In this document: one piece after another, positions 4,470 to 60,898 of the stretch
Numbering within the stretch: the stretch's first letter is position 1
Layout: each line of letters opens with the position of its first letter
Assembly (NCBI GenBank): GCA_002049455.2
Contig: KV918799.1
Span: forward strand, 40,020 to 104,019
Length of the DNA: 64,000 nucleotides
Reading direction: 5' to 3'
Source of the DNA: Porphyra umbilicalis
Lineage: Eukaryota > Rhodophyta > Bangiophyceae > Bangiales > Bangiaceae
Notes under the pieces: model-generated
The model's input: only the letters and a program-made list of their open reading frames with translations
Databases searched by the model: none
Told to the model about the DNA's origin: nothing
Translations under genes and position numbers: made by a program

Positions 4470-6575
4470 CTACTGACGCAATGGAAAAAACGTATGCGGC
4501 GTGCTGCGTGTGCCGCGCTCTCGCTCTTTCCTGTCCCGGGAGGAATCGTACTGACTCCCATAATCGACCAGGACCTTCTCCTCTACACGGATGTCCTTGA
4601 TCGCCGAAATGTGAAGCGCGTCAAAGTCCAACAGCTCGGTCAACTTGGTGCGGCCAAACATGTCCGTGACTCACAGTTTCGCGTTGGGTGTGCGAGCACC
4701 AGCGGCTGTTGTCGACGACGACGACGCCGCCGCCCGCACCTCATCAGCTGGTGACGATGCACGAGGGTCGTTGACGTAACCCCCCACGCAGTAGGGAGCG
4801 GGAACAACCCAAATAGAGCGGCTACGCATACCCGCTTCGTCGTTGCCCGATGCCGCTGCCCGCTCCGGCCGCCGCGCACGTAACCGGACGGCTCTTAAAT
4901 GCGCAATTGGAGGTTCTGTCGGCACCGAGCGCGGCTCGCACGATGTAGATGGCCCATCGGCGTGCCGATGGTCGACCCGATCATCTAGGCCACCGCCGTC
5001 GCATGGTGGCACCAGAACCTCTACCTCCACAGCACGCGACGCAATGTCACGTGTGGTCGGTCCGTGCTGACCAAGCACGTCAATCGCGTACCGCCCCGAC
5101 TTGACCGTCTGCGTGCTTGGGTTGGCGTACACAATGGTGCCAAAAAATGGAGCTACGCGCTCTCCCGCACAAATGAAGCGACCGGAAAAGACACCAAGAC
5201 CGCTTGTTCCGCCGCCTTGCCCGGACAGCGCCGTGTACAGCTCCAACTGAGATGCACAAGCGTCCCTCAACGTCACAGCATCCTCCACAGCCAGGCGGCG
5301 GTGGAACTCCACAGGCCACCTCCCAACGCCAACGCCTTTGAGCGCCAGGACATGGGTGGCCAACTCTGCTCCCGACGTCGACGACAGAGGGTTGCCTTCT
5401 TCATACAACGCCCGAGATGCGTCGGCATCGCCAGCCCAGCAGCACGCAAGAAACGCGACGAGCTCTGGAGGCAACGCGGAATTACAAGGAAGTCTCGACT
5501 CCACCGCGGGAGGCGCCCAGCCCAGCTCAGCTGCCGTCGCCAGCCGGTGTCCCAGACATGGTGGGCCGACGGAGGATGAGCCAGCTTGGTGCTCCTTCTT
5601 CAGCGCGTCCTCCTGTCGGCGCAGATCCTGACAAGCTTGCACCACGTCGTCACTGCGGCCGCAACTCGCAAACCACCCGAACGTAACTGCGTCCACAAAC
5701 TCAGCACGTAGCCGCGAAATAGCGAGCTCAACGACACGGGGGTCCCGCTCACCGCAAAACACCAACCGATGTTGCCCCACGGGCATTGACACACACGCCA
5801 TGGCGGTAGAAAGGGTTCCCGCAAAAAAGTCGACGAAAGTGTCGCCAGGTTGGCTGTTGCGAAGGATGAGCTCTTGGAGAAGCCCGCGACCCATTTGCTC
5901 GGGCCGCAACCACTTGCCTGCGCCCCCTCCACATTCAGGGGCGTCACGTACGGCCTCTTGAAAGGTGGGTCCGCGCACGTTGTCGATGACGTTCTCGTGT
6001 GCGCGGAAGCGGGAAGGCACCATGCTGAAGTTGCGGTAGTTGACCATGTCGTACTCGTCTTGGCGTCTGCGCCCACACCTCGTGGCCCGCACAACCTTTT
6101 CGACCTTATTTTTCAGCGCAGTAAAACCGCCTCGGAGCGACGTGAAAGACCGCGGGTCCCTGACGAGGTACAATGGCGCGCTGTCGACGTGTAACACTGC
6201 CGCCCCGGGTGAGGACCGCACGGCGGGCGCCTTGCGCTTGCCCAACGCGCCAAGCGCACTTCTTACGCTCGTGCTGCCACTGCCGCCACGGCCGCCTCGA
6301 CCGCCAGCGCCGCCTCCACCACCAGCACTATCGCCGGGATGGGAAGGCGTACCGCTCAACGACCTGCTGCCACCTTCGACTGCCAAACGCAGCTTGTCAA
6401 TCCACGGCTGGAGTTGTGCAGGCGCACAGAAGACATGAATGTTTCCGCCAGGCCGCAACATCTTGACAGCCTCCTCTACAACGACGTCCATGTCGCGTTC
6501 GCTCAGCTCATCGAGCGCCGACATCGTCATGTTGTTCAACCGACGGTTGCTGTACGGCGGGTCGATGAGAATCAT
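4470..6575 (-). CDS. DNA methyltransferase (N4/N6 type) fused to SET domain, 3' exon
   Basis: The exon opens right after a 3' splice site and encodes motif IV DPPY (6552-6563) within eleven residues, then a Gly/Ser-rich insert, then motif I as DFFAGT (5814-5831) followed by an E-x-D...A-x-x-RL stretch. Catalytic motif before the cofactor motif is the order of beta-class DNA amino-methyltransferases, which methylate adenine N6 or cytosine N4. The C-terminal third is a SET domain: GLGVF start (about 5157-5206), GYVNDPR (4761-4781), PNAKL, and a final VLVDYGSQY (about 4548-4574). SET domains transfer methyl groups to lysines, usually of histones. A TGA at 4671-4673 interrupts the frame between PNAKL and the DYG end, with SET-like sequence continuing in frame to a stop at 4470. 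Either the SET end is lost, the stop is read through, or there is a splice or sequence problem. Substrates are inferred from the families only. Confidence 0.8.
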
Positions 6576-6779
6576 CTGAACAGTACGCAGCAGCGTCCGA
6601 GGAAGCGTGTGGCCCGCCGCTGCCCGTCCGCGGTCGCCGCCAGCGCCATCAAGCTTCCTGCCTGCGCTGCTGCCACCAGCGTCAATCGCATGGTGCTTGG
6701 GCTTCGTCCCGTCCGCCAGACCAGCTGCACTGCCCGACCGGGAAGCTTGGCCAAGTTCGTCACAAAGTCACTCACTAAC
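6576..6779 (-). other. Spliceosomal intron in the methyltransferase-SET gene
   Basis: Reading the minus strand, a GTTAGT donor (6779-6774) and a pyrimidine-rich TACTGTTCAG acceptor ending at 6576 bound 204 bases. Removing them joins the upstream frame (6780-8033) in phase to the codons that lead straight into the DPPY catalytic motif. Without removal the upstream frame stops at 6768. An overlapping GTGAGT donor four bases further in would break the frame, so the outer donor is preferred. Confidence 0.75.
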
Positions 6780-7900
6780 GGAGAAGTGCTCCACGCCGCC
6801 GCCATTCGCCATCCCGTACGTGGACCAAAGCTGCTCAAACGAGCACACGTGAGCTTGTGCGACCAGGCACATTGCGCGGTCCACTAATGTGAGCGCATCG
6901 CCAGGGCGGCCACCGCCACGGCCACCGACATATTGACTAGCGCCTTGCGTGTCTTCGACGACGGAAGACCCTCTACCACCACCACCACCATAATGGCGAT
7001 TTGCGCGTGCGGAGGATCCACGGAAGGCAGTAGCAGCATCAACAACCCACACTTTGGTGGCACTCAACATTCCAAACTGGGTCCGACGCTCAAAAGCAGA
7101 AATCTCTGCGCGCGTGTACGGCCTCAAGTGCTCGCTTGGCGGCTGCCACGACGATTCGTACGCCGAAGTCATGTCGCTGCGGGTCTCGTCACTGGCACCG
7201 TCCGACAGATTGTTGTCCTTGCCAGAAGATTGGCCTGTAGTAGTCTCGCCGACAGAGCCAGAACGCCTGCTGCTGCTGCTGCTGCTGCTGCTCTCGTCCC
7301 GACAGGTTCTCCGCCCCACGCGCTCATCCCCGACAGGCTGTCCATGCGAGCGTGAATGCCGGCCGCCACGACGACGGGCATTGCGGCGTTGAGCATCAGC
7401 AACGCCCGCAACATCCATCAATGGAAAAGCTGTCGAGCCACGCGCGACCGTCCTTAGAAGGCGCGGGGGTGCATCAAACCAGCGACCACTCCAAATCGGA
7501 GGGCGATAATCGAGCCCCGTCACAGTGGAAGACGACGTCGGCGTGCAGCCCAAACGACGTTGGCGTTCGGTTGTGCTACAGGCACCCACAACCGCATCAC
7601 CGCTTCCCGACGAGACAGCGGGCGGCGCACTACATGGAGCAGGCAGTGGATCTGCCACGCGAGCCCATGAAACAAGCAACTGGATGGCTTCAGGCGACGT
7701 GCAGCGGAGCGCGTGGTCTAGAAAGTGTGCCCCACACGTGCGAAGCTGCAAGCTTCCATAGGCCGTCTCTTCCGCCGTCGCAGCAGCCCCAGGACAACAA
7801 CCAGGTTTGTCAGCTTCCTCCGCGCGCGCTGCTGTCGCATCCCCAGGAACACCCCGGGCGGCTGCTGGCATGCCGTGAAACAGGCAGACGTCTTGCAGTC
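6780..7900 (-). CDS. Methyltransferase-SET gene, central segment
   Basis: This frame runs into the intron at 6779 and is continuous with the methyltransferase exon after splicing. It encodes a Cys/His-containing part, a segment with aromatic and Pro residues (around YRPPIWSGRWFDAP), an Arg/Ser-rich low-complexity stretch and a Gly-rich linker just before the catalytic domain. I do not recognise a named domain. The stretch may be a target-recognition or regulatory region, but that is inference. Its 5' limit is uncertain: the frame changes somewhere between about 8030 and 7780, by an intron or a frameshift I could not place. Confidence 0.55.
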
Positions 7901-9273
7901 CCAGCGCGCACGTGAAGACATCGGACGGGCGGCACAGGTCAGCCCAACAAGGCAACTCGTCGCAAAAAGGATGTACCTGCCCAACATGGCCTCTACATCC
8001 ACAAAGCCGACCGTCAACGCCAAAGCGTCCCACCCGGTCACATTATCGCAAACAACGCCGCGGGCAACGGCTGCGCAATCTGCCGCGTCTCGCCACTGCT
8101 GCTGCGCAAATGGTCGTGCACTTGACGACGCGTTTGCTCCGCGTCCACTTCGCCATCGAGGGAGAAGCACACTTTGGCGGACGACGCCGAGCCACAACAC
8201 AACTTGAAAAGGCGTCAGTGAAGGAAGCGACGCCGCGAAACGGGACCCTCGTGCTGCATCAGCGACCAACTCGTCGCCCAGCCAGTAGAGGAGGGCACCA
8301 ACCAGCTGAGAGCCGTCGCGATCAAACCATCTTTGGCGCCCGTCCCGTCCGTGACCGGCGCGTACAGCTCCAGCCTGTGCGGAAGGCGACGCATGGGAGC
8401 CTGCATCACCTCTCGCTGCCGCCGTGACGTCTGCATGCGCCCGCTCGACATGGACATCAATGCCAGGCCCCTCAAACTCCAAGACAAGACTCAGCACAAG
8501 CTGCCACACGCGCACATCAGCGGCAAACGTCGGTGGCACGTCCAGCACAAACACATCTCGTACACAGAGGACATCATCGTCGACAACAAGGCGTCGCAGC
8601 GCCGTGCCAAATGTCGGCCCGCCAGGGGCCACGAGACCCGACCGAACTTCGCCCGAGCAAAGCAGCATCCGCCGCCAGACGCCTGCATCCCCTCGAGCTG
8701 GCTCCACGTCGGCTCGGTCCCCTTAACGTTGTTTCCACCACCACCACCACGAGCAGCGGCTGCCACCAAACGTGGACCCATAACGATCCGTTTGAGCTGC
8801 CACACCGCGGCGTACACGGGTGCATAAGCCGGGTCGTCCAACCAGGCCGTGTTGCTCGTCAATTGCGTCTGCACGCCGTCGTACGCCGCCCCGCCGACGA
8901 GCGGTCCGACCAAATGACCGGCCCGACTGATGCTCAGCCGGAGCGGTCGTGTGTGTCGTGCAGCCCAGGCCTTGACAGCCGCCCATGACCCATCTGGGAG
9001 TTGGAAGCGCCTCCCGACCCCGTTGTGGGACTCCAAGGGTACCAAGCAGCGCCCGTCAGCAGAGGAAAAGACTTAAAGAACGTAGAGGTCGCACAACGTG
9101 GCCAACACGACGACCAGGGCACCGACGGGAAGATGACCTGCCGCCGGGCCACACGATGCGCTTGGCGCCTTCCCGGACGGTGACGTACCACTTTTGGCAA
9201 GGGCGACCACGGTGGCCCCCGCCAGAGCAGCACGCGTACCGTGAGTGAAGACGTCGGATGCTGACGACGACAT
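7900..9273 (-). pseudogene. Methyltransferase-SET gene, 5' part with broken frame
   Basis: Two frames together give a plausible N-terminal region. The first runs from a possible ATG at 9273 to a TAA at 9073-9075 and continues in the same frame after it to about 8690. The second runs from about 8707 to 7900. Residues on both sides of the TAA look coding (hydrophobic stretch ending DLYVL before; LPDGSW after). I recognise no domain. Breaks are one in-frame stop and one frame change near 8690. The start could lie further upstream, because an open frame extends to 9477 without a convincing ATG. Confidence 0.4.
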
Positions 9274-10015
9274 GTCTCGGAGGACAGCAGGAGCTGTAGA
9301 TTGCAACGCCGCCCTGCTGTGCACAGGGCATGGACGACCGACTCGGATAGGGTGGGTCTCCAACAAGCCCCAGAGCCCCAACCAGAGCACAAATGATGCG
9401 CCCGTGCCAGGGATCGCATTGCTGTGCGGGCGTGTACAGGCAGCACTAGAGCAGCCCACACCGCCTTGCCGCCGCACAATGCCGCCAAAGTGGGCGCTTG
9501 AGAATGCCGATCGTAACGGGTGACTCGAAATTTGCTGCTCGTCTCAATTTGGGGATCCATTTTCATCCACAGGATTGAGACAAGTCCAGTCCGCCTGCTC
9601 ACAACACGGATCGTTGGCAGCCTCATGGAACAGGTGGTTCAGCCCGTCTTGGCAAAGGCGGGCCACGTGCTTCTCGACGGAAAGAGGCAGGGTTGAGACA
9701 CCCAACCCACGCCACGCGCAAGACACCAGTGCTTTTGCGGCACACAACAAAGGGACGACAACTGAGTGCACCGATCTTCAATGCATAGATGACGTGACAG
9801 CTGCACGACATCCTGCGGCGTCCATTCCTTCCCGCGCCGTTTGGAGACCCAGAAGTCACTTGCTGATTTGTTTTGTACCATATATCGGCCTGTCTACGAT
9901 CGGTATTGGCCAGTGGCCGATGCCGCCCGAGTGCTTTGTGGTTTTTCCGAGACGGCGCACGCATAGTATCAGAGACAAAACGAACCCCAGCCCATGTCCC
10001 CCTCGTGCGTACTTG

Positions 10016-10696: not shown

Positions 10697-12316
10697 TTAC
10701 GTTGCGCACACCCCCGACCCGCCCCCCGCCTCAATGTCGGCCGCAGTGCACCGAAACACGACATGCGTCGCGTCAGCGTCTGAAAGCGACGCATGCTGCT
10801 GCCCACGACGCCTGCGGCGGTAGCGTACGGAGTCGCGCCGCCTGACTGCAAGCTGCAAGGTCGTGTGCCCGGCACCGTCCCGCTTGCGCACATCGGCGCC
10901 TGCGCCAATAAGCAGCCCGCAAATTTCAGGCCTCATACCTACAGCAGCCCAATGTAGAACTGTCCTCTGCTCCAGCCCACCGACTGCGTGGACGTCCGCC
11001 TGGTGCTCGAGAAGCTTCTTGACCATGGCCGCATTCCGCCCTACAAACGCCGCATTCTCGAGCGGCGTGAAAGAGTGATGCATCGGGACCTTGTCGCGAT
11101 AATTCGCGTCCGCCCCGGCCGCAAGCAGGATGGTCATTGTAGGAAGATCCTTGTCACGCCCCCGGCGCGCAAGAGCGTTGAGCGGCGCGTCAGCGCGGTC
11201 GTCCGGCTTTGGAAGCGGAGGAAAAGGCCCAACGCTGCAGCCACCCACCGGCACAAGGGTATCGACGATTCCCGTCGGATCCGACCCAAACACTGCGGCC
11301 TCGATTGCACTGACTTCCTCCTCCACGACATCAACGTCGTGCCGGGCACCAGCGTGAATCAGGGCGCGCACCCACCCAACTCGACCACATCATGTCGCTT
11401 GCACCAAAGCATGTGCCAGCACCCTGCAGCTCGTGTGGGCATGCCCCATGACACGCTTGGCGACCGTCTGACCCATCACAGAAGAAAGCGGGCCTGCGAG
11501 CGTCATCGGCGACACCGCGTAATTGTTGGAAAGCACCGCGCTCGCGCCGCACGCCCAGAGGAGCGACACATCGCCCGTTCGGCCGTTTCGCACGGCCACG
11601 TGAAGCGGTCCATCCCCAAACAAATTGGGGACACCCAGCAGCGCCCCATCCGCGTCCACCAGCACTCGTACGACGGGCTGATGCCCCGCTCGAGCCGCAA
11701 GGTGCAACGGCGTGTGGCCGTAGATGTCACCGCCGGCGTTTTCGTGAATCCCATAGCGCATTAAAGTGGCAACAGTCGCGACGGATCCTCGGCGCGCCGC
11801 CAAGTGCATCACCCCTCGACGACGCCACGTCCGGCCCCAGCCGCAGCACCCTCTCGAGAGCAGCGTGGCGACGTGCGTCGCAATTCCGTCTCGTGCTGCA
11901 CCCAACACCGGATGCGGTGTGGTCGACGGCTCCATAACGTCGTAAAACTCCCTCTCCTCGTCCGTGTGCTGGTCAAAGTAGCCCGGCGAGCGCTTCTGCA
12001 CGTCCTGTGTCAGGGTCACGACGCGATCGTGTGTCGCTACAGCGCCGGCGTCAGAGCCGCTGCTGCTGCTGGCCATCATGCCGGCCATCGTGGTGTACCG
12101 CGCAGACTTCAATCCGCCGCTACCGCTGTCGCTGCTGCTGGCGGTCATGCCGGCCATGGTGGTGTACCGCGCAGACGTCGATCCGTCGCTACCGCCGTCG
12201 TTGTACGACTCGTCGTCCGACTCACTCGTGCGCCCTCCGTCGACGGCAATGTAGGCCCTGCAGCGCGCTTCGTTCTCAGCGGCAGCGTGAGCAGCAGCCC
12301 CAGATGCATCCGCCAT
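10697..12316 (-). pseudogene. Ankyrin-repeat protein, one in-frame TGA
   Basis: From the ATG at 12316 the frame encodes a Ser/Asp-rich N-terminus with a 23-residue duplication (period 69 bp near 12078 and 12147), then ankyrin repeats: HLAARRGSVATVATLM, GHTPLHLAARAGHQPVVRVL and GDGPLHVAVRNG. A TGA at 11390-11392 follows, but the same frame goes on at once with repeat-like sequence (GRVGWVRALIHAGA) and further repeats (TPLENAAFVGRN, TVLHWAAVGMRPEICGLLI) to a stop at 10697. There is no frameshift in about 540 codons. Ankyrin repeats bind other proteins; the partner is unknown. The locus is either a gene recently hit by one stop, or one translated through it. Alternative start codons lie slightly upstream of 12316. 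Confidence 0.8.
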
Positions 12317-12364
12317 AACACGAACCTTCCCTGACGTTTGGGAAGGCGTTGACACACGCCACAC

Positions 12365-17642: not shown

Positions 17643-18720
17643 CTACGTGTTGCGCTTCTTCCTCTGCTCTCGCTCCATCGGCGACCCGGCCGTCCACTTC
17701 CACGCCATCTGCAGCATCAGATTGCGAACGTGGTCGTTTTCCTCATACGTGCCCACGTTGACGTTGAGAAGCCCGTTGGAGACAAGAGTCTCGACCGACA
17801 AACGCGGACCAGCGCGCTCTGATGCTTGGCTATCCGCCAGGTATTTGAGCATACACTCGACCGTCAGGGGCGAGACGGCGTTGAGCAGCGCAATCTTGAT
17901 GATGCGTGCCAGGGAGTCGTCACCGAGCGTCTGACCTTCCTTGTTCAGCGGCACGAGCCCAGCGTCGTACGCCCGATTGCCGAGGACGGTAACGGCCTGC
18001 GGCCGTGTCTTGCCTGGCACATACCGAAGACGTTCGTACGCGGGCTTGAGCTGGTTGTACGTCACGACCGAGTTGACTGCCCACACGAAGTGGTCCAGAT
18101 GCGTCATGGAAATGGAGATGGCCGGCAAGTTGTTGGACGCGGCTCCGAGGTTGAGCGTGACCCAGTGCGACATCGGCTTCAGGTCGCGACGGCCGCTCCA
18201 AGCGACGAGGATCCACTCCACAGCCATCTCATGCTGCTCATCCAGCAGCCGCTTCATCGCAGCGAGGCGATGCGCGCCGTCGATGAGAACAACCGGGTCA
18301 TCGACGTTAGCGTCCACATTGTTGATCCCCTGCTTTCTGGCGACCGTTACCGCGTTCAACCACAGCTGCTTCTTTTCGGGGTCAAGCGCCTCGGCGTCAG
18401 TCCGAGTAAACGGCACGAGGTTGGTGACTTATGAGGCAATGCGCCGTTCCCGGGTCTGCCGGCCCCAGCCGCACGCGCGACGGAAGCGGACGCGACCCCA
18501 TCGCCACTCGTCAAGTCGTCATGGACGGTAGACCCACTCTGGATCCAGTCTTGGCAACCAACATAGAGCAAAACGCCCATTCGTACCCCGATCTTTGTTA
18601 AGCATTGTAGTGATGAAGAACGGTGTCTTTCGACAAATTCCGTGTCGTGACGTCGGCAACGCGGATGTCCTTAATGTGCACCACACGGGGCGACTTGACT
18701 CACGTCCCCGTCGGACCTCA
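17643..18720 (-). pseudogene. ParB/sulfiredoxin-like domain
   Basis: VVLIDGAHRLAAMKRL (key DGAHR at 18267-18281) matches the D-G-x-H-R box of the ParB/sulfiredoxin fold. Upstream, in another frame, VVHIKDIRVADVTTRNLS resembles the opening strand of such domains. ParB-fold proteins bind DNA and CTP in chromosome partition, or act as nucleases or modification-system partners; the activity here is unknown. The downstream part is helical (TVLGNRAYDAGLVPLN; LMLQMAWKW). Stops lie at 18718 (TGA), 18598 (TAA), 18511 (TGA), just before 18416 (TAA) and at 17643 (TAG), plus one frame change near 18450. An intron near 18700-18450 could explain several of these, but I could not fix its borders. Confidence 0.65.
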
Positions 18721-25252: not shown

Positions 25253-25267
25253 GGTTATGGGCCCAGC
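25253..25267 (+). other. Copia primer binding site (initiator tRNA-Met anticodon arm)
   Basis: GGTTATGGGCCCAGC directly follows the 5' LTR. It is the exact complement of the conserved anticodon stem-loop of eukaryotic initiator tRNA-Met (GCTGGGCCCATAACC). This implies priming by a cleaved half-tRNA, as known for Drosophila copia, rather than by the tRNA 3' end. Confidence 0.85.
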
Positions 25268-28200
25268 TGTCGCTGGTGGTAATCGTCGTCTTCCCTGCGG
25301 TCGCTGGCGAGACGACGTTGCTGGGGTCGCAGTGTGTTCCGGCGTGGGGCGGGCGTTCTCTGCTCCCTACGTCGTTAGTGCGGCGCTGTGCGGCGCCGAG
25401 GTCGTCAACATGTCAGACCACGGCCGCTTTGGCGGCCTGCGGTTCGCGCAGCTGGACGACGACTACAAGGTGTGGGCGGCGTACCAGCGAGCGCAGCTCA
25501 AGAAGGAGAAGCTATGGGCGGCGGTCGTGACGGACCGCCCGGCTTCTGCGTCCGACGACAAGAAGTCCGACCCGGTGGTCGAAGCGTGGGACGCCATGAA
25601 CGAGGCGGCGCTGGCGACCATCCAGATGTCGGTCAAGCCCGTGCATCTCAACACGGTCACGTCGGTGGACACGGCCAAGGAGGCCTGGGACGCGCTCAAG
25701 GTCATGCTCGAGGCGCGGGACAACGCGCAGCTGCTGCGGCTCATGGACGAGCTGAGCAGCCTGAAGAAGGGCGGCGACGAGAACATCATCAAGTTCACGT
25801 CGCGAGCCAAGATGATCCGGGACGAGCTCGCCATGCTCGGTAACCCTGTGGACGACAACACGCTCGCGCTGCGTGTCTTATCGGGGCTGCCTGCAGAGTA
25901 CGGGATGCTCAGGACGGTCTTGGAGAACAAGGACACCAAGCTCGTCATGTCGGACGTGACGGCTAAGCTGCTTCAAGTCGAGCAGCGGAGCATTTTTGTC
26001 GGCGCTTCCAAGCCTTCTGGCAGTGTCAAGTCACAAGCCTTTGCGGCAGCGGCGCCTAAGAAGCCGTTTGACAAGAAGTCGGTCGTGTGCTTCTACTGCA
26101 ACAAGAAGGGACACATGCAGCGCGACTGCTACAAGAAGAAGGCGGACGAGGCCAAGGGCAAGGGCAAGCCCGGCGGTGGTGGTCGTGAAGGCGGCCACGG
26201 CGGCGGGCCCCACGCGGAGGCCGCTCTGGCCTACACTGCTTCTACTGGCAATGCCGGGAGCAGTAAGGCTCACGGGAGCACACGGGGGTCATCAACTTGG
26301 GTGCTCGACTCTGGTGCAACCAACCACATGGCCGCCGGGGATAAGGGCTTCACCGTCCGGACGGCGGGAAGCGGGGCCGAGGTCACCTTGGCCAACGGCG
26401 ATAAGGTGCCCATCAAGGGGCACGGCCACGTCTCCATGGACGTTGGCAAGGGCAAAACCAAGACGCGCATGGTGCTAGGGGAGGCCATGCTCGTTCCGAA
26501 CCTGACCAGCAACCTGCTGTCGGTTCGAGCGGTCGACCGCAATCGCGGTGCTGTGGTGTTTGTCAACAACGCCTGTTACATCCTCAGCGACGGGGATGCT
26601 GTTCGCTTGAGCGGGGTGCTCGACAAGGCGACGGTGGTCGGCAAGGTGAACGACCTGGAGCAGTATGTGCTCAAGGTAACGCCGGTCCAGGCGTCGGCTA
26701 ACGCGGCATCAACGCGCATAGCTGGGGAGGCGGAGCTGTGGCACCGTCGGTTCAACCACTTGGGGTTGGAGAACCTCAAGCGGGCGGCCACAATGGTCGA
26801 CGGCATGCCGTCGTCAGTGGCAGACGCTAAGCGCGTCATTGGCACTGTGTGTGTGCCGTGTGTGGACGGCAAGATGGTTCAGTCGCCGAGCCCCCGCTCG
26901 TCGACAGCGACAACCAAGTGCGAACTGGTGCACACCGACATTGGTGGCCCACTCACTGAGTCGCTGGGTGGCTCCCTCTACTTTATGACGGCACTGGAGG
27001 ACTCAACGGGGTTCATCACGGCTACGCCTATCAAGACAAAAGGGATGGCCCCGGACGTGCTCAGGACGCGTATTAAGCAGCTCGAGACGCTCCCGGGGGT
27101 CAAGGTCAAGCGCGTCCGTCATGATGGTGCCAAGGAGTACGTCACTAACGACCTCAAGGCATGGTACGAGGACAAGGGCATCACGTCGGAGATGACGGCG
27201 CCGTACAAGTCACAGCAGAACGGCAAAGCGGAGCGGGTGAACCGCACGCTGATGGAGCGCGTGCGTGCTGCTCTGCTCGATGCGGGAGCGGAGGAAGAGC
27301 TGTGGGCTGAGGCGTTGGCCTCCGTCGTTCATGTTCTGAACAGATCCCCCAAGGCGGGGCTGGACGTGACGCCGCTGGAGGCTCTAACGGGTCGACGCCC
27401 CAACGTCGCGGGATTCCGCGTTTGGGGGAGTCGGGCGTGGGCGCTCAAACCCAAGAAGCAGCAGCGTAAGCTGGAGCCAAGGACCGACGTCGGCCGCTTT
27501 GTCGGCTACACGGTCGGTGGCAAGGCCTACCGCATCCTCGAAGACGAGACGAACCAAGTCTTTGAGCGTCGAGACGTGCTGATGGAGGAGAACCCGGCTA
27601 AGGTCGAGACGTCGGCGGTCGGGCCAAGCGCTGGTCCCCGGCTAACTGCGGAGGCTGACGCCGACAGCGTCGACGGCACGGAAGGGGAAATGGACATGCT
27701 CGACGCTGAAGGCGGGCGTGGGGACGAGTACACCCCCGACGAAACTTCCACAAGCGACGAAGATGGCAGTCCTCCTTCCCTCGCTGAAGAGAGCGAGAAA
27801 GAGGACGATGACGGCGACGGTGACTCGACACCCTGGGTCGGTCAAGCACCTGCGGCCAGTGACAGCGTCGCACCGGGGCCTCGTCGCTCGAAGCGCAAGC
27901 CAGCGCCCAAGGTAACATGGTGGGAGAAGGAACCCAAGGCGTACCTGGCCAGCGGTACCGCGTCCGCGGCTGAGGCGGGCTGGGACTTGCACAAACCGCC
28001 TGCAAACGAGAAGGAGGCGCGCGCTCGTCCTGACTGGCCGCTGTGGAAGCAGGCCATTAAGGAGGAGGTGGCGGCACACAAGAACCTTGGCACCTGGTCC
28101 AAGACCAACGGTAACAACAAGAAGCACAAGGCCGTCAAGACGCGATTCGTGTTTGACATCAAGCACGACGCGGAGGGCAAGATGACGCGCTACAAGGCCC

Positions 28201-29588
28201 GACTCGTGGCCCAAGGTTTCAACCAAGTGCCGGGGCGCGACTTTGATGAGACATGGGCGCCGGTGCCCAACGCGGCTACGACACGGTCTCTCTTTGCTGT
28301 GGCTGCAGCTACGGGCTGGGAGGTTCATCATGTCGATGTCAAGACAGCCTTCCTCAACGCCAAGATGGAAAAGGAGATGTACATCAAACTCCCCGACGGT
28401 GTCGATCCGAAGGGGCTGGAGGAGATATGTCGGCTAAATCTGGCACTCTACGGGACAAAGCAGGCGGGGCGGCTGTGGGGCATCAAGCTCGACAAAGAGC
28501 TCAAGGAGATGGGGGCGGTCCGGTCCAAGGTGGACCCGTGCCTCTATGAGTGGCACCACCCCGTGCACGGGTGTATCTTTATCCTCGTGTACGTCGACGA
28601 CCTTATCGTGGCGGGCGAGAAGCTGGCTGGGGTCAAGGCCGTCAAGCACTCCGTGTCTGCCAAGTTTGAGGTGCGCGACATGGGGGAGGTCAAGGACTTT
28701 ATCGGCATGAAGGTCATGCGCAACCGGGCGGCCAAGACTCTGACGTTGAGCAACCCGGGGCACACCGCGACGCTGCTGGAGGCGTTCGGGATGGACAAGG
28801 CGACGCCAAACAAGACACCGATGGCGTCGGGGGTCAAGCTGACCAAGACAGGGGAGGGCCTTCTGCCGGAAGGCAACCGTTACGCCGAGTTGGTTGGCTC
28901 CCTCCTCTACCTGTCTACCACGACGAGGCCAGACATCGCCTTTGCCGTGGGGGTGCTGTCGCGCTTCATGTCCTGCCCTGAGGAGGACCACATGCGCGCG
29001 GCCAAGGGGGTTTTGCGCTACCTGCGCGGGACGACTCGCCTGGGGGTGGTCTACGGCGGCAGCGAGCCGCTGCAAGGGTTTGTCGACGCCGAATGGGCCG
29101 GCGACATCGACGGTCGTCGGTCGACAACCGGTTTCGTCTTTACCTGCAATGGCGGGCCGATTGCGTGGGCAAGCAAGCGCCAGTCGACCGTGGCCACCTC
29201 AACGGCCGAGGCGGAGTACGTGGCCGCCGCGATGGCGACCAAGGAGGCGCTGTGGCTACGCAAGCTGCTGTCGGTGCTGGGCGTCGACGGCGGAGCCGTG
29301 CCAATGGGGGAGGACAACCAGTCCTGCCTGGCGCTTGTCAACAACCCGGAAGCGACGGGGCGGACTAAGCACGTGGATGTGGCTTTCCACATGGTGCGAG
29401 ACTACCAGGCCCGCGGGGAGGTGGCATTCTACTTCCTCCCGAGCGCGGAGATGCCGGCGGACGGGCTCACTAAGCCGCTGCCGTTGCCGGCGTTTATGGC
29501 TTTCCGGAACGCCATCGGGACTGGCGGGGACCTGGGCGAGGTGGTGCGCGACGCTGGCCTCGGCGGCCCCCCGTTGGGGAAGTGCTGA
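25257..29588 (+). CDS. Copia gag-pol polyprotein
   Basis: One frame of 1,443 codons ending TGA. The first ATG (25257) lies inside the primer site; the likelier start is the ATG at 25410, where Gag-like sequence begins (residue 52). Domains in order: Gag helices (about 60-240); CCHC zinc knuckle CFYCNKKGHMQRDC (from residue 278); aspartic protease WVLDSGATNH (DSG at 351-353); HHCC pre-integrase zinc finger (about 496-545); integrase core with D561, D623 and E659, giving DD35E spacing; reverse transcriptase with YVDD at 1112-1115; RNase H with STAEAEY and DNQS. All catalytic residues are present, so the element may be autonomous. Gag and Pol share one frame with no shift or stop, so Gag excess must come from splicing or processing. 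Confidence 0.97.
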   Translation: MGPAVAGGNRRLPCGRWRDDVAGVAVCSGVGRAFSAPYVVSAALCGAEVVNMSDHGRFGGLRFAQLDDDYKVWAAYQRAQLKKEKLWAAVVTDRPASASDDKKSDPVVEAWDAMNEAALATIQMSVKPVHLNTVTSVDTAKEAWDALKVMLEARDNAQLLRLMDELSSLKKGGDENIIKFTSRAKMIRDELAMLGNPVDDNTLALRVLSGLPAEYGMLRTVLENKDTKLVMSDVTAKLLQVEQRSIFVGASKPSGSVKSQAFAAAAPKKPFDKKSVVCFYCNKKGHMQRDCYKKKADEAKGKGKPGGGGREGGHGGGPHAEAALAYTASTGNAGSSKAHGSTRGSSTWVLDSGATNHMAAGDKGFTVRTAGSGAEVTLANGDKVPIKGHGHVSMDVGKGKTKTRMVLGEAMLVPNLTSNLLSVRAVDRNRGAVVFVNNACYILSDGDAVRLSGVLDKATVVGKVNDLEQYVLKVTPVQASANAASTRIAGEAELWHRRFNHLGLENLKRAATMVDGMPSSVADAKRVIGTVCVPCVDGKMVQSPSPRSSTATTKCELVHTDIGGPLTESLGGSLYFMTALEDSTGFITATPIKTKGMAPDVLRTRIKQLETLPGVKVKRVRHDGAKEYVTNDLKAWYEDKGITSEMTAPYKSQQNGKAERVNRTLMERVRAALLDAGAEEELWAEALASVVHVLNRSPKAGLDVTPLEALTGRRPNVAGFRVWGSRAWALKPKKQQRKLEPRTDVGRFVGYTVGGKAYRILEDETNQVFERRDVLMEENPAKVETSAVGPSAGPRLTAEADADSVDGTEGEMDMLDAEGGRGDEYTPDETSTSDEDGSPPSLAEESEKEDDDGDGDSTPWVGQAPAASDSVAPGPRRSKRKPAPKVTWWEKEPKAYLASGTASAAEAGWDLHKPPANEKEARARPDWPLWKQAIKEEVAAHKNLGTWSKTNGNNKKHKAVKTRFVFDIKHDAEGKMTRYKARLVAQGFNQVPGRDFDETWAPVPNAATTRSLFAVAAATGWEVHHVDVKTAFLNAKMEKEMYIKLPDGVDPKGLEEICRLNLALYGTKQAGRLWGIKLDKELKEMGAVRSKVDPCLYEWHHPVHGCIFILVYVDDLIVAGEKLAGVKAVKHSVSAKFEVRDMGEVKDFIGMKVMRNRAAKTLTLSNPGHTATLLEAFGMDKATPNKTPMASGVKLTKTGEGLLPEGNRYAELVGSLLYLSTTTRPDIAFAVGVLSRFMSCPEEDHMRAAKGVLRYLRGTTRLGVVYGGSEPLQGFVDAEWAGDIDGRRSTTGFVFTCNGGPIAWASKRQSTVATSTAEAEYVAAAMATKEALWLRKLLSVLGVDGGAVPMGEDNQSCLALVNNPEATGRTKHVDVAFHMVRDYQARGEVAFYFLPSAEMPADGLTKPLPLPAFMAFRNAIGTGGDLGEVVRDAGLGGPPLGKC

Positions 29589-40955: not shown

Positions 40956-42302
40956 TTGTTCCGGAAGCGGGGTGAATGGGACGCGGTTTTTCATCCCTGT
41001 CGAGTTGCCATGGCGCCATCCTCCACCCCCTTGGCCGCATTCTTCTCGACTTTCGGTCGAATTGGTCCTGTAAATGGTGTTCGTGCGGGCTTCTCCCCTT
41101 CCCTGTGTCTCAGTAAGACCAGTCCTTGGTTTGTCTCGTGGGTCTTGACTCTGGGTGGGGCGTTTGTTGGCCGCTGGAGGACACTCCACCTCGTGTTCTG
41201 GGTCTTGACGACGGCGTGCGGCAACACCCCCGACGACCAAAGAGCACGCAACTTGGCGGTCGCGGTCGCGGCGGCGCCAGCGGGCGGTGCGCACCTGCTG
41301 CAGAGCCAAGAGCTGGTGCAGCTACGCGCTTCGACACGGCGGCGGCTCAAGAACCAGGCGCCGCCGTGGTCGTGGGTCGCGGTCGGTCAAGGCAAGGGTG
41401 TCGACCCGCTCGTCCCTCGTGCTCGCACTCCTCCGGCTCTGCGTGCAACACGGCTGCACCCGCTGCCCCTCCTTTCGGTTGGCGCTCGCGGCGGAGCGCC
41501 CCGCCGACGCCGTGGTGCGGTCGGGTCCGCCAGGCCCCACGAGCGCGCGGCGGCGCTAGACGGGACGGCCTCTCAAGTGGGCGAGCCGCCGACGGCGGTG
41601 GCGTGTCTGCAGGACGGGCGGGACACGGCGGAGCGCGTGTCCGCCAAGTAGGTCGTTACGGAGGCGGCGGTCGCCGCTGTCGTCGCACGCCTTGACGCCG
41701 CGGTGGCGGAACTACGAGCCTCCGTCGACCGAGGGACCGTGCTTTTGTCCGAGACTGACGCCCTGTGGGCGGAGGAGGCGGCCGAGGTGTGGACGTTCGC
41801 GAGCGCCATCTTCGTGCCGACGGCTGACGTGGCGCTGCACGGCGAGGCGGCTGCCGCCGCATCGGTGGCGGCCGACGACTTGGCCGCGACCATCCGCGCC
41901 GAGATCGTCGAGGCCAAGGCTGACTTGGCGCTGACAACCTCCTTTATTGAGCACGAGCGCGGGGTGCACCGCGCTCGACAAGAAGAGCTGCAGCGGCTGC
42001 AGATAGAGGCCGACGAGTTGCGTAGCAACAATCGGAACTCTCGGCGCGGTCGCGCGTCTGACAAGGCTCGCGCGGCTGGGTCCGCCGTGCCCGCACACTC
42101 AGCGGCACGGGCGGCCGAACGGGTGCGGCAGGGCTCGAGCAGCTCGGCGCCGGCGCTGCGGATTGCGGGGGGGTTGGTGGACCGGGCGGGGGGTGGCAGC
42201 TCCGGCGCGCGGGCGCCAAGCGCGGGTACGGGGCCGTCTGGGGTGCCTGTGGCACGTCCTGGCGCCCAGTCGAGTGAGAGTGCCGGCCACCGGGTCGTCT
42301 GA
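40956..42302 (+). pseudogene. Coding-like frame in repeat unit 1 (coiled-coil-like), in-frame TAG
   Basis: A frame of 231 codons ends at TAG 41649-41651 and continues in the same frame for a further 216 codons to TGA 42300-42302. The second part is Ala/Glu/Arg-rich and heptad-like (AELRASVDRGTVLLSETDAL; RARQEELQRLQIEADELRS), suggesting a coiled coil, and ends in a Gly/Ser/Pro-rich tail. A candidate ATG in good context is at 41010. I do not recognise a family, and competing frames are open over 41126-41695, so the first half is uncertain. Confidence 0.4.
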
Positions 42303-42359
42303 GGGCGACGGCCGAAGTTGTCAAATGACAAGTTTCTTGTATTCTTACGGAAAGGTGTC

Positions 42360-42388
42360 TCCTGCATGATTCTGAGAATCATGCAGGA
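42360..42388. repeat. Hairpin in repeat unit 1
   Basis: CCTGCATGATTCT and AGAATCATGCAGG are perfect inverse complements around one base (42361-42387), about 60 bp after the coding-like frame. Half copies of the motif occur at about 40313, 42727 and 43079. Confidence 0.9.
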
Positions 42389-43718
42389 AACACGTTTCCG
42401 CCATGGTTTTGGCGATCCGTCTCGACCGGACCCTGGCCGACCCAGGCACCCCACGAGGTGCCCCGGCAGCTGGGCAAGGTCGTGAAGAGCAGGCGAAACG
42501 AGCCCCCTCCCTCTGGGGGTGCGCATGCCGCTTTTGGAGGACGCGTGCAGTTTGACCACCCCTTGCAAATGACCCATATGGGGCACTTTGGGGACTTGGT
42601 CGCAGCACCATGCCACCAAGTCAGAATCGTGACGGAAACCCCTTTCCTCCATGATATTGTTCCTTGCCTAGAGAACGTTTCTGCCATGATTTCCTTGCAT
42701 GGCAGACCGATCCCTAGGTCGGGGTCAGAATCATGCAGGAAACACGTTTCCGTCATGGTTTTGGCGATCCGTCTCGACCGGACCCTGGCCGACCCAGGCA
42801 CCCCACGGGGTGCCCCGGCAGCTGGGAAAGGTTGTGAAGAGCAGACGAAACGAGCCCCCCCCCTCTGGGGGTGCGCACGCCGCTTTTGGAGGACGCGTGC
42901 AGTTTGACCACACCTTGCAAATGACCCATACGGGGCACTTTGGGGACTCGGTCGCAGCACCATCCCACCAAGTCAGAATCGTGACGGAAACCCCTTTCGT
43001 CCATGATATTGTTCCTCGCCTAGAGAACGTTTGTGCCATGATTTCCTGTCATGGCAGACCGTTCCCGAGGTCGGGGTCAGAATCGTGCAGGAAAGACTTT
43101 CTCACAGCGATTCTCGTCACAGTCCAAAGCCCTCCCGGGCCGTCCCAGGCATCCTTCGGGTGCGTGTCGCGACGGTCTGTGCGAGTTCATTCGGAGTTGA
43201 CGTGGACGATCTGCTTACGGGGCCGCTTATGGTGTTTGTGCGTAAGGGTGTGCTTTTGCCACCTTTTGCGAGCGAACCACATGCCTGCTCCTCAGAGATG
43301 TTTGGCCCCCACCCCTCCGTGAAGTCAGATACGTCGGAAAATGCCATTCCAGGGTGGTCCTGCTCCTTTACGGAAGGACGCTTTTGCGGCGATGTCCGCC
43401 GCGGAAGACGTTCTTCGTCGCAGTCGACAGACGCGCCGGGATGCTAATTATGTTGCGCTAAGCGTTTTCGGCGTGTCGGTGACCCATAGAAGCCAACGGC
43501 ATATTTTCTGCCTGAGGACTCTGAACCCGTCTCTCTCTCAAAGGTGTCGATTCCACTCCACGTTGGGGGAAGGTGTACGAAGAACGAGCCCAGAAGAGTT
43601 TGACACCACCAGGCGCGCGAGGGAGGGGCGATCAGAGGAGGGCGGGCTGTAGGTAAGGTGCTGAGTGGAGTGAGCGGGCGCCATCTCAGACGGTGTTTAA
43701 GGAACGCGCCTAGAGGGC

Positions 43719-45065
43719 TTGTTCCGGAAGCGGGGTGAATGGGACGCGGTTTTTCATCCCTGTCGAGTTGCCATGGCGCCATCCTCCACCCCCTTGGCCG
43801 CATTCTTCTCGACTTTCGGTCGAATTGGTCCTGTAAATGGTGTTCGTGCGGGCTTCTCCCCTTCCCTGTGTCTCAGTAAGACCAGTCCTTGGTTTGTCTC
43901 GTGGGTCTTGACTCTGGGTGGGGCGTTTGTTGGCCGCTGGAGGACACTCCACCTCGTGTTCTGGGTCTTGACGACGGCGTGCGGCAACACCCCCGACGAC
44001 CAAAGAGCACGCAACTTGGCGGTCGCGGTCGCGGCGGCGCCAGCGGGCGGTGCGCACCTGCTGCAGAGCCAAGAGCTGGTGCAGCTACGCGCTTCGACAC
44101 GGCGGCGGCTCAAGAACCAGGCGCCGCCGTGGTCGTGGGTCGCGGTCGGTCAAGGCAAGGGTGTCGACCCGCTCGTCCCTCGTGCTCGCACTCCTCCGGC
44201 TCTGCGTGCAACACGGCTGCACCCGCTGCCCCTCCTTTCGGTTGGCGCTCGCGGCGGAGCGCCCCGCCGACGCCGTGGTGCGGTCGGGTCCGCCAGGCCC
44301 CACGAGCGCGCGGCGGCGCTAGACGGGACGGCCTCTCAAGTGGGCGAGCCGCCGACGGCGGTGGCGTGTCTGCAGGACGGGCGGGACACGGCGGAGCGCG
44401 TGTCCGCCAAGTAGGTCGTTACGGAGGCGGCGGTCGCCGCTGTCGTCGCACGCCTTGACGCCGCGGTGGCGGAACTACGAGCCTCCGTCGACCGAGGGAC
44501 CGTGCTTTTGTCCGAGACTGACGCCCTGTGGGCGGAGGAGGCGGCCGAGGTGTGGACGTTCGCGAGCGCCATCTTCGTGCCGACGGCTGACGTGGCGCTG
44601 CACGGCGAGGCGGCTGCCGCCGCATCGGTGGCGGCCAACGACTTGGCCGCGGCCATCCGCGCCGAGATCGTCAAGGCCAAGGCTGACTTGGCGCTGACAA
44701 CCTCCTTTATTGAGCACGAGCGCGGGGTGCACCGCGCTCGACAAGAAGAGCTGCAGCGGCTGCAGATAGAGGCCGACGAGTTGCGTAGCAACAATCGGAA
44801 CTCTCGGCGCGGTCGCGCGTCTGACAAGGCTCGCGCGGCTGGGTCCGCCGTGCCCGCACACTCAGCGGCACGGGCGGCCGAACGGGTGCGGCAGGGCTCG
44901 AGCAGCTCGGCGCCGGCGCTGCGGATTGCGGGGGGGTTGGTGGACCGGGCGGGGGGTGGCAGCTCCGGCGCGCGGGCGCCAAGCGCGGGTACGGGGCCGT
45001 CTGGGGTGCCTGTGGCACGTCCTGGCGCCCAGTCGAGTGAGAGTGCCGGCCACCGGGTCGTCTGA
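43719..45065 (+). pseudogene. Coding-like frame in repeat unit 2
   Basis: Second copy of the frame at 40956-42302, with the same in-frame TAG (44412-44414) and only a few amino-acid changes in the coiled-coil part (for example D to N and E to K near 44638-44675). The shared TAG predates the tandem amplification. Confidence 0.4.
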
Positions 45066-45122
45066 GGGCGACGGCCGAAGTTGTCAAATGACAAGTTTCT
45101 TGTATTCTTACGGAAAGGTGTC

Positions 45123-45151
45123 TCCTGCATGATTCTGAGAATCATGCAGGA
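45123..45151. repeat. Hairpin in repeat unit 2
   Basis: Same inverted repeat as at 42360-42388, one unit (2,763 bp) further on. Confidence 0.9.
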
Positions 45152-46481
45152 AACACGTTTCCGCCATGGTTTTGGCGATCCGTCTCGACCGGACCCTGGC
45201 CGACCCAGGCACCCCACGAGGTGCCCCGGCAGCTGGGCAAGGTCGTGAAGAGCAGGCGAAACGAGCCCCCTCCCTCTGGGGGTGCGCATGCCGCTTTTGG
45301 AGGACGCGTGCAGTTTGACCACCCCTTGCAAATGACCCATATGGGGCACTTTGGGGACTTGGTCGCAGCACCATGCCACCAAGTCAGAATCGTGACGGAA
45401 ACCCCTTTCCTCCATGATATTGTTCCTTGCCTAGAGAACGTTTCTGCCATGATTTCCTTGCATGGCAGACCGATCCCTAGGTCGGGGTCAGAATCATGCA
45501 GGAAACACGTTTCCGTCATGGTTTTGGCGATCCGTCTCGACCGGACCCTGGCCGACCCAGGCACCCCACGGGGTGCCCCGGCAGCTGGGAAAGGTTGTGA
45601 AGAGCAGACGAAACGAGCCCCCCCCCTCTGGGGGTGCGCACGCCGCTTTTGGAGGACGCGTGCAGTTTGACCACACCTTGCAAATGACCCATACGGGGCA
45701 CTTTGGGGACTCGGTCGCAGCACCATCCCACCAAGTCAGAATCGTGACGGAAACCCCTTTCGTCCATGATATTGTTCCTCGCCTAGAGAACGTTTGTGCC
45801 ATGATTTCCTGTCATGGCAGACCGTTCCCGAGGTCGGGGTCAGAATCGTGCAGGAAAGACTTTCTCACAGCGATTCTCGTCACAGTCCAAAGCCCTCCCG
45901 GGCCGTCCCAGGCATCCTTCGGGGGCGTGTCGCGACGGTCTGTGCGAGTTCATTCGGAGTTGACGTGGACGATCTGCTTACGGGGCCGCTTATGGTGTTT
46001 GTGCGTAAGGGTGTGCTTTTGCCACCTTTTGCGAGCGAACCACATGCCTGCTCCTCAGAGATGTTTGGCCCCCACCCCTCCGTGAAGTCAGATACGTCGG
46101 AAAATGCCATTCCAGCGTGGTCCTGCTCCTTTACGGAAGGACGCTTTTGCGGCGATGTCCGCCGCGGAAGACGTTCTTCGTCGCAGTCGACAGACGGGCC
46201 GGGATGCTAATTATGTTGCGCTAAGCGTTTTCGGCGTGTCGGTGACCCATAGAAGCCAACGGCATATTTTCTGCCTGAGGACTCTGAACCCGTCTCTCTC
46301 TCAAAGGTGTCGATTCCACTCCACGTTGGGGGAAGGTGTACGAAGAACGAGCCCAGAAGAGTTTGACACCACCAGGCGCGCGAGGGAGGGGCGATCAGAG
46401 GAGGGCGGGCTGTAGGTAAGGTGCTGAGTGGAGTGAGCGGGCGCCATCTCAGACGGTGTTTAAGGAACGCGCCTAGAGGGC

Positions 46482-48734: not shown

Positions 48735-49727
48735 GATGAAGAAAGTCCGGTTCCCGCCCGATGTGGAGAATAGGGGGGGGGTGATGGCCGTGAGGAGAGC
48801 GAAACAAGCAGCAGCAGCAAGCAGCCCTTGCACGGCAGGAAAGGGGGGGCCGGGCGGGGGCGGGTCCGAGGAGAGCGGGTTTCTGAACACTAGAAGGGTC
48901 AAACAGACGCTATCAACCACTGCATCGATGACACGCATACGTGCGGCCGACCAACGACTGTGGTGCACGCACTATTTCGGGGCCAGTGCTCCACGGGCCA
49001 ACGTCCGTGGTGATCGGCAGAGCGTGGCCGGTCTGTCGCCAGGGCGGCGCCCGCGTTGGGGCTGTGGCGGTGCCGCGGGTGGCCCGCTTTCATTGCCCCT
49101 GCAGCTGTTGACCGAGCCACGCCGACAGCGCGGCCTCGACTGCTAGATCACGCTTGACCTCGCACCAGGTTGCAGTGCGCGCGCGCGCGCGCGCCGACAA
49201 GCAATCGCGTGAGCCTGGCAATTGGCCGACGTGGCAGGACTTGAATATCGGGCCAGGGTCGAGTCTCGCCCGTTAGGTCCCATAGAATTGATGGCGGCCA
49301 GTGGAGAATCCATGTTCATGCCCGCGAATGAATTGTCAAGAAAACAGAGCATCTGGCGTTGAATAGCCAATCAGAGCCATAGGTAGCTGTCACACAGCAG
49401 CTGGAACAGCTGGAAACAGAGGAATGGTGGCCACTCATTTTTGGCACGCTGCGGAGCACATTTTGGCAAATGGAGGTGACAAATAGTGGGTACCAGTGAT
49501 GGGCTGCCCACGTGACCGAGCAGGAATCGTGAGCCCCAACCGGGCCGCAGAAGAAGCAGACAGGGGGGATATACCGGCCTGTCATTGGTGGATACAATTG
49601 GCACGACGAAAAAGGCACGACAAAGCGCGTGCCAAACGGCATTTGTAGGCCGCACGGGCGTCCACTGCCGATCCTGGAGGCCACTGCACCTGCAAGGCCA
49701 GTGCATCCACTGAGTTCCTGGGCCCGG
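48735..49727. other. Intergenic region left of the satellite
   Basis: No gene recognised. It contains a (GC)9 run at 49177-49194 that could adopt Z-DNA. The right edge grades into the satellite: 49700-49740 already resembles part of a monomer. Confidence 0.5.
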
Positions 49728-60896: not shown

Positions 60897-60898
60897 CG

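Follow-up and report, generated by a model that had tools for sequence, protein, structure and literature searches.

Among the described systems closest to the gene family reported here is that of bdelloid rotifers, in which, according to the sections of PMC8885841 that deal with it, N4CMT, a captured bacterial-type amino-methyltransferase, has a chromodomain joined to it, and SETDB1, which is amplified, is a protein of its own. The family in the Porphyra umbilicalis genome is similar in that a bacterial-type amino-methyltransferase is found in a eukaryote and, by its predicted domains, would be coupled to histone lysine methylation; it differs in that the methyltransferase itself bears a SET-like domain, and in that the unit is multicopy and has ATAD2-like neighbours (with these it forms what we call the cassette). 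DNA methyltransferases on amplified elements, as in our family, are also known from retrotransposons of Symbiodinium and charophytes, which bear a DNMT, and from Dam-like DIRS elements, as outlined in parts of PMC5890265. There, however, the elements are retrotransposons whose machinery is known and the domains are C5-DNMT or Dam-like; the term "SET domain" does not occur in the main text of PMC5890265.

VANDAL transposons encode anti-silencing proteins (VANC), whose targets are tandem repeats in the element (PMC10398659, in the portions used here). The cassette would resemble them in combining an element-encoded chromatin factor with tandem repeats as targets, but VANC induces a loss of DNA methylation, and those portions of PMC10398659 describe no methyl writer. 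Finally, homologues of Yta7 have been described as conserved anti-silencing factors (excerpts of PMC4899616), and the two-AAA architecture of Yta7, ATAD2, LEX-1 and BRAT1 is also that of the cassette ATPases.

The gene in the window

The window is the whole 64-kb stretch of DNA analysed here. The earlier note had read on its minus strand, between 4470 and 9273, a beta-class DNA methyltransferase followed in the same frame by a SET domain. The features that we recognise are the following.

7721..8722, minus strand: upstream ORF ahead of the methyltransferase, with the conserved block GWDALALTVGFVDVEAMLGRYILFA inside 8041-7904 (tblastn, shuffles)
6771..8033, minus strand: upstream region continued in another frame, PSDVF...LFHGMP (shuffle test)
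6576..6775, minus strand: possible intron between upstream region and methyltransferase, GTTAGT...TTCAG, about 200 bases (by eye)
5694..6593, minus strand: amino-methyltransferase domain in beta-class order, DPPY first and motif I last (PF01555, tblastn)
6552..6563, minus strand: DPPY, catalytic motif IV (translation)
5814..5831, minus strand: DFFAGT, motif I, AdoMet binding (translation; aligns with DLFMGT and DLFAGS of relatives)
4674..5315, minus strand: N-terminal part of the SET-like domain, with GLGVF, WVVP, GYVNDPR and PNAKL (alignment with relatives)
4671..4673, minus strand: in-frame TGA stop within the SET half (sequence; family A homology crosses it)
4473..4670, minus strand: C-terminal part of the SET-like domain, with AIKDI and VDYG (4557-4568), and tail; the methyltransferase frame is resumed past the TGA

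Translation confirmed the positions and strand claimed for DPPY and DFFAGT, and the window matches PF01555 (N6_N4_Mtase, beta-class DNA amino-methyltransferases) just above the curated cut-off (27.6 versus 26.7 bits, E 3.5e-6). The methyltransferase and SET-like halves lie in one frame and the four motifs noted for the SET half are all found there, but the TGA falls between PNAKL and VDYG. Homology to the SET region of family A, one of two subfamilies of relatives, spans this stop (tblastn match 4814-4491, E 3.8e-6). An intron that would excise the TGA was considered and rejected by eye: GTGAGT overlaps the TGA, but inspection revealed no acceptor that preserves the frame together with the SET motifs.

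The first ATG of the methyltransferase ORF is at 6575, and we find no support for a gene start at 9273. In the upstream region, the block at 8041-7904 matches family B (tblastn, E 0.018), and none of 500 shuffles was as good against A, or likewise against B; for PSDVF...LFHGMP, an equally good score came from 1 of 500 shuffles with A and from 20 of 500 with B. Two other upstream blocks are weaker (39/500 shuffles; 2/500 and 7/500). The first two blocks are about one base out of frame with each other, and thus a one-base frameshift near 7950 apparently breaks the upstream part of the gene. Further upstream in the window we cannot recognise the family's N-terminal region (shuffles as good in 18/200 and 64/200), and a protein search of the genome with 6771..8033 returned only itself. 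The sequence at 6576..6775 may be an intron; introns of the GT...CAG form are seen by eye in two LHC genes of the host. Because of the TGA and the apparent frameshift, an intact fusion is not supported from the window gene itself, which is probably a lone, decayed member of its family, barring an error of assembly.

A family of methyltransferase-SET genes

The same genome contains 21 relatives outside the window, in two subfamilies, A and B; within each they are multiple, dispersed and near-identical copies (about 80-100% DNA identity), a pattern by which transposable elements are recognised. The family A protein matches the window with 31.7% identity over 306 amino acids (tblastn, E 3e-21), and 20 of the 21 relatives show a match to the SET-like tail. 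A stop-free single frame over methyltransferase motif I and the DYG of SET exists in at least 5 of them (C82, C265, C60, C272, C94), most copies being broken by this test; the motif patterns behind the count are our own, so that counts are lower bounds, and they returned nothing for C40, C33, C31 and C22. A and B can be joined in one gapped alignment through the methyltransferase-SET joint, with 286 of 815 columns identical (35%). That the domain order recurs at 21 other places in the genome argues for more than chance.

The motifs that define PF01555 are D/S-PPY (motif IV) and FxGxG (motif I). C82 has both (DPPY, DLFMGTGTT) and C88 has DIPW and FAGSFS; the window has DPPY, and its motif I reads FAGTLS, so that the second glycine of FxGxG is missing from both the window and C88. 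C82 (51.1 bits) and C88 (48.0 bits) score above the PF01555 cut-off, and DNA-methyltransferase models of PHROG and NCBIfam match in relatives. The best PDB and NCBIfam matches of this half are the adenine methyltransferases RsrI, DpnA, MboIIA, CcrM and YhdJ, with scores far under the NCBIfam cut-offs and models that cover only the methyltransferase end of the protein. While DPPY and DLFMGT are kept in the family A copies C82, C265, C5 (two) and C8, DIPW replaces DPPY in the 6 of 12 subfamily B copies in which our pattern detected motif IV, and given this replacement the subfamily B enzyme may be inactive or altered. DPPY points to 6mA rather than 4mC; with the matches to adenine-methyltransferase models, it makes 6mA the more likely predicted product.

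The marks of a SET domain are, in order, the N-SET GxG, NH and ExLxxDYG. The A and B rows of our SET alignment (A3, without L024 and L021, which have stops in the SET reading) retain GLGxF, NH and GEELxxDYG in this order; the window has GLGVF, ND in place of NH, and EKVLVDYG. (Alignment A5 is without the L019 and L050 pieces, owing to stops.) The SET assignment of the earlier note agrees with the motif order in the family but not with the profile: of the two family models proposed as a check, PF01555 is reached and PF00856 is not (14 bits for the first member, against a cut-off of 22.4). At E up to 10, seven of eight members have a PF00856 match, the best of them with E 0.042, and whole proteins gave no PF00856 match in the Pfam search. 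A profile of the family SET region retrieved 22 PDB matches. SET enzymes make up 20 of these and belong to four kinds (KMT5A, PBCV-1 vSET, EZH2, PRDM12), but they stay below significance, the best with E 0.13; the top match is an Ala-rich stretch of a ribosomal protein (E 0.0087). Alignment by hhalign to the host's E(z)-like SET domains gave E 4.2e-5 and a probability of 70% over 39 columns, or E 1.2e-4 and 55% with the window row removed. Single-sequence folding of the window stretch yielded no usable structure (mean pLDDT 35.5). We infer that the fusion would tie DNA to histone marks, through a SET half that is divergent.

Two pairs of copies are the clearest, and in both the reading frame shows purifying selection: C82/C62 (dN/dS 0.43, bootstrap 95% 0.34-0.55) and C88/C22 (0.41, 0.25-0.63). 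In the eight other pairs the signal is weak (0.61-0.77, with an interval that includes 1 in six of the eight). For C82/C62 the methyltransferase region by itself (tblastn pairs) gives 0.465, in agreement with the whole frame. For C82/C62 and C88/C22 a low dN/dS is obtained in the antisense control frame anti2 as well (0.51 and 0.59). This is expected wherever anti2 and the coding frame share synonymous positions, and therefore these controls are not independent.

The stop-free frames, the alignment of A with B through the joint, and the dN/dS values of 0.43 and 0.41 support a predicted polypeptide in which a bacterial-type amino-methyltransferase is joined to a SET-like domain: the fusion claimed from the window stands for the genome-wide family, and not for the window gene with its stop and apparent frameshift. 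In the best explanation, some 900 N-terminal residues of the family protein precede a bacterial-type beta-class amino-methyltransferase and a divergent SET domain. A literature search aimed at methyltransferase-SET fusions listed none, and pattern-based scans of IMG/VR and of GTDB, which has no eukaryotes and is silent on other algae, confirmed no relative.

ATPase neighbours and repeats

Of the 21 copies, 18 have an ATAD2/Yta7-like AAA+ gene no more than 20 kb downstream and in the same orientation, and 11 have a second such gene beyond the first; by chance about 0.004 ATAD2-like neighbours would be expected per copy. The count covers 22 loci and 59 of 78 ATAD2-like rows, divided by identity into 30 first and 29 second ATPase genes. 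The 19 rows omitted are extra fragments of listed loci, except for three of C213, which is absent from the list of first ATPase genes through their omission. The cassette ATPase matches PF00004 (E 1.5e-29) and has an AAA1 as well as an ATAD2-type AAA2, which in the first gene has only ATAD2 (2.8e-12) and YTA7 (3.4e-4) as PDB matches at E up to 0.01. In contrast to Yta7 and ATAD2, the cassette ATPases are multicopy, no bromodomain is found in the L063 and L064 ORFs (Pfam, E up to 0.01), and the AAA1 of the first gene has FFDA instead of the expected FFDE at C88, where the gene is split over frames, and at C445.

The N-terminal region of the family protein has a ParB-like GHxR motif in both multicopy subfamilies; this region has no ParB match in Pfam, PDB or plasmids, and its phage matches are at chance level (best E 2). 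Tandem arrays of repeats of about 220 bp are found in the examined parts of C88 and C272, and repeat units at C7; there are none in the examined piece of C82 and none at C445. In the 64-kb window, arrays are absent (there is a single match of 29 bases) and ATPase matches do not rise above chance (best E 0.09), and C39, its contig, has no row in the genome-wide ATAD2-like search. No transposase, integrase or RT gene was found in the cassette ORFs scanned with Pfam, which are selected ORFs rather than whole cassettes, and nine further ORFs around the cassettes match no Pfam family. No element end was found at the single left junction examined, which is made by another repeat. Comparison of the C445 and C53 flanks identifies the left flank of C445 as another repeat. 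Amplification could have occurred by segmental duplication.

A proposed self-marking cassette and its alternatives

Our preferred reading, to which we give a probability of roughly 0.4, is that the cassette is amplified, selfish or semi-selfish and possibly mobile DNA that sets marks on its own chromatin. Cassette DNA, perhaps the tandem arrays, would be recognised by the N-terminal region and given an amino-methyl mark by the methyltransferase; the SET half would methylate a lysine close by, and Yta7-like ATPases would protect expression of the region from silencing by the host. Distinctly less likely is a silencing system owned by the host, in which the fusion puts a repressive DNA and histone mark on repeats and the family has grown by segmental duplication. 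Bdelloid rotifers do silence transposons with an amino-methyltransferase-chromodomain fusion and amplified SETDB1 (relevant sections of PMC8885841), arrays and other repeats adjoin some copies, and the scanned cassette ORFs have no transposition gene; yet the linkage is to Yta7-type genes, which elsewhere are anti-silencing factors (excerpts of PMC4899616), and the many broken copies and differing left flanks are more what one would expect of a proliferating element than of a gene family maintained by the host.

We consider it improbable that most copies have lost the enzymatic function of the methyltransferase half, leaving a family of DNA-binding and SET proteins or of decaying repeats. The DIPW of family B, the incomplete motif I of the window and C88, the stops and frameshifts of many copies and the higher dN/dS of 8 of 10 pairs agree with such a loss, but the motifs retained in the five family A copies and the dN/dS of the C82/C62 methyltransferase region do not. 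That the cassette began as an endogenised virus or as a large DNA transposon, with a methyltransferase brought from phage or bacterium, seems about equally improbable: the unit is multigene with many copies, the methyltransferase half is similar to phage and bacterial methyltransferases, and the C82 protein is matched by 54 phage records at E up to 1e-4 and the window ORF by 2 at E up to 0.01, but among the 25 rows listed no phage match extends over more than 16% of the C82 protein, and all lie in the methyltransferase half, the IMG/VR and GTDB scans confirmed no relative, and the selected ORFs scanned with Pfam include no viral or transposon gene. That the fusion arises falsely from assembly, or from two genes being read as one, as the TGA and apparent frameshift of the window might suggest, is hardly credible and was rejected, because the domain order is present in both diverged subfamilies and recurs in one open frame on several independent contigs.

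The self-marking reading has a stronger and doubtful form, in which a single element-encoded protein would mark its own arrays twice, on a DNA base and on a histone or other lysine, and the element's Yta7-like ATPases would convert these marks into protection from silencing. To our knowledge, no transposon has such a self-contained system of epigenetic identity. In favour of our preferred reading, 6mA lies in active chromatin of AMT1-encoding protists (abstract of PMC12695648); against it, the enzymes there belong to another family, MT-A70/AMT1, and robust 6mA is reported in species with AMT1 only, an argument against enzymes of other kinds as 6mA writers. In the systems compared here, DNA and histone methylation are linked by separate proteins, each of which reads the mark set by the other. 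If the proposal is true, the presence of both writers in one polypeptide, in many recent copies next to Yta7-type genes, would directly test whether mobile DNA can carry its own chromatin-state machinery, and would provide a natural tool to put two marks at one place.

The gene copy in the window

The copy of the gene carried by the window has the following features:

4671-6575, minus strand: ORF of 634 aa (protein P0001), starting with the DPPY motif
5814-5831, minus strand: motif I of the DNA amino-methyltransferase (MTase) half, inside the P0001 ORF
4673-4671, minus strand: in-frame TGA inside the SET-like stretch, ending the P0001 frame
beyond the TGA to 4473, minus strand: remaining SET motifs AIKDI and VDYG, in the same frame

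The earlier note had read here one minus-strand gene (4470..9273) coding for an MTase and then a SET domain in the same frame: the shared frame stands, while the SET half is interrupted by the TGA. The SET region of family A, one of two multicopy groups outside the window, matches positions 4814-4491 straight over this TGA (tblastn, E 3.8e-6). Upstream lie two family-conserved blocks with frames one base apart near 7950; in sets of 500 shuffles, none scored as well as the first block, while the second was equalled by 1 in the comparison with A and by 20 in that with B. On the simplest reading of the sequence the window gene appears decayed, by the upstream frame change and the TGA; the same frame breaks may instead reflect sequencing or assembly error, and an intron may occupy the roughly 200 bases ahead of 6576. 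The window copy is solitary, without cassette partners; ATPase matches in the window are at chance level (best E 0.09), and there is a single array match, of 29 bases. The upstream ORF at 6768-8033 has itself as its sole match in the genome.

Elsewhere in the window we observed a tandem array of a 164-bp unit (49726-57784, about 49 copies, 93% matches), a Copia-like polyprotein ORF of 1443 aa (25257-29588, plus strand) and gypsy-like retrotransposon ORFs (58578-63822, plus strand), the latter two named by eye, and an ankyrin-repeat ORF (11390-12364, minus strand; Ank_2 E 2.2e-23). Two near-identical ORFs of 359 aa, 2763 bases apart (41573-42652 and 44336-45415, minus strand), form a direct duplication; they overlap two copies of a 352-bp tandem repeat that are equally spaced.

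The MTase-SET family in the host genome

The host is probably a red alga, judging by its best light-harvesting protein: this scored highest against 9vfj_11, a long chain in which no single stretch passed, next against 7y5e_42 (Porphyridium), and after that against ACP/CAC chains (cryptophyte). A search of the genome (83.8 Mb, 665 contigs) with P0001 yielded 30 matches, which fall in the window and at 21 other loci. These 21 copies were split by DNA similarity into two subfamilies, within which identity is about 80-100% (C-numbers are host contigs):

Subfamily A: C82, C265, C5 (two), C113, C62, C40, C8, C33
Subfamily B: C25 (two), C60, C88, C272, C94, C31, C22, C48, C363, C445, C7

The A and B proteins form a single gapped alignment from before the MTase into the SET half (35% of 815 columns), and the SET-like tail was matched at 20 of the 21 non-window loci, the piece examined at C48 excluding the tail region. 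One stop-free frame of 1495 codons at C82 holds DPPY, motif I and EELFLDYG; motif IV, motif I and DYG share a single frame at C265 and C60, as do motif I and DYG at C272 and C94. This test used our own motif patterns, the remaining copies being broken or missed by them. At the level of the family, the alignment through the joint and these open frames uphold the claim of both halves in one polypeptide.

Codon comparisons in the reading frame gave dN/dS values (bootstrap 95% intervals) of 0.43 (0.34-0.55) for C82 versus C62 and 0.41 (0.25-0.63) for C88 versus C22; eight further pairs lie at 0.61-0.77, with intervals that include 1 in 6 of the 8. This pattern, weak for most pairs, fits selection in active lineages and then decay of single copies.

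Judged by sequence, the MTase half is solid. Its expected profile (PF01555, N6_N4_Mtase) matched the window ORF just above the curated cut-off; PDB matches include RsrI, DpnA, MboIIA and CcrM, PHROG gave DNA methyltransferases or entries without a name, and the leading NCBIfam matches are models of DNA methyltransferases and of adenine-specific DNA methyltransferases, every NCBIfam score being far under its cut-off. Motif IV is DIPW in 6 of the 12 family B copies, those where it was found.

The SET half is divergent: 7 of 8 members matched Pfam SET (PF00856), all under the cut-off. Of the 22 PDB matches to a family SET profile, 20 are SET enzymes, which fall into four kinds (best SET E 0.13); the highest score went to an Ala-rich segment in a ribosomal protein chain (E 0.0087). 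Profile-profile comparison with six host E(z)-like SET domains gave E 4.2e-5 and a probability of 70% over 39 N-SET columns, and E 1.2e-4 and 55% without the window row. Single-sequence fold prediction of the window SET stretch gave no usable structure. SET matches number 85 in the host genome, and many of them lie in frames of around 1000 codons free of stops. Of eight such loci inspected, six (L051-L053, L055-L057) carry long ORFs of E(z)/EZH type in which a CXC-like pre-SET was recognised by eye; the two ORFs checked with Pfam matched preSET_CXC at E 9.7e-5 (just under cut-off) and 2.9e-7. This suggests an expanded host E(z)-like family.

Both subfamilies carry a ParB-like GHxR..AA motif in the N-terminal region, a likeness that searches of Pfam, the PDB, plasmids and phages did not support. 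An ORF at 17643-18416 (minus strand) with a DGAHRLAA motif and a weak DndB match (E 0.015, under cut-off) resembles the GHxR stretch (hhalign E 0.009, probability 4.5%).

ATPase neighbours and repeat arrays

At 18 of the 21 non-window copies an ATAD2-like gene follows within 20 kb on the same strand, against a chance expectation of about 0.004 per copy; 11 of those 18 have a second ATAD2-like paralogue, about 33% identical to the first, within a further 15 kb. In the PDB, ATAD2 and YTA7 are the sole matches to the first gene's second AAA domain at E ≤0.01; the second gene has general AAA ATPase matches, with ATAD2 and YTA7 among the best 60 listed. Pfam scans of two ATPase ORFs showed no bromodomain. 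The first gene is split over frames at C88, while at C272 and C7 its position holds uninterrupted frames (820 and 811 codons). The ATPase module is common to A and B cassettes (about 80-86% DNA identity). At C445 it bears a ~930-bp insertion (piece L049, about 8397-9330), parts of which recur elsewhere in the genome; at C25 the flanks overlap by 8 bases, like a target-site duplication.

Tandem arrays of ~220-bp units flank the B gene at C88. The left array has about 5 units and the one on the second-ATPase side at least 35; the two are related (66-80%) and run in opposite orientation. Units also occur at C7 and C272, and were not seen in the C82 piece examined; the left flank at C445 is a different repeat, ending at a TATA-like sequence before the gene. 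Pfam scans of selected cassette ORFs found no transposase, integrase or viral gene.

A proposed self-marking cassette

These results can be considered in the light of known systems. Among the records listed by literature searches for the fusion or its parts (titles and abstract starts, mostly non-subscription papers), none joins a DNA amino-MTase to a SET domain; the nearest known cases are retrotransposons with DNMT or Dam-like domains and the rotifer N4CMT-chromodomain fusion. PMC4899616 describes Yta7 homologues as conserved anti-silencing factors and reports that plant BRAT1 has another ATPase, BRP1, as its partner at methylated regions, and PMC10398659 describes VANDAL transposons with their own anti-silencing proteins, whose targets are tandem repeats. 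The family may, on the opposite reading, be a silencing system, by analogy with bdelloid rotifers (PMC8885841). PMC12695648 ties 6mA to active chromatin and reports it as robust only in species with AMT1, a different enzyme; this weighs against a 6mA writer of the MTase-SET kind. By analogy with the Yta7/BRAT1 and VANDAL anti-silencing systems, we propose, as the bolder reading of the family, a self-marking cassette: the MTase-SET protein would place marks on the arrays as well as on the cassette itself, which the Yta7-like ATPases would keep expressible.
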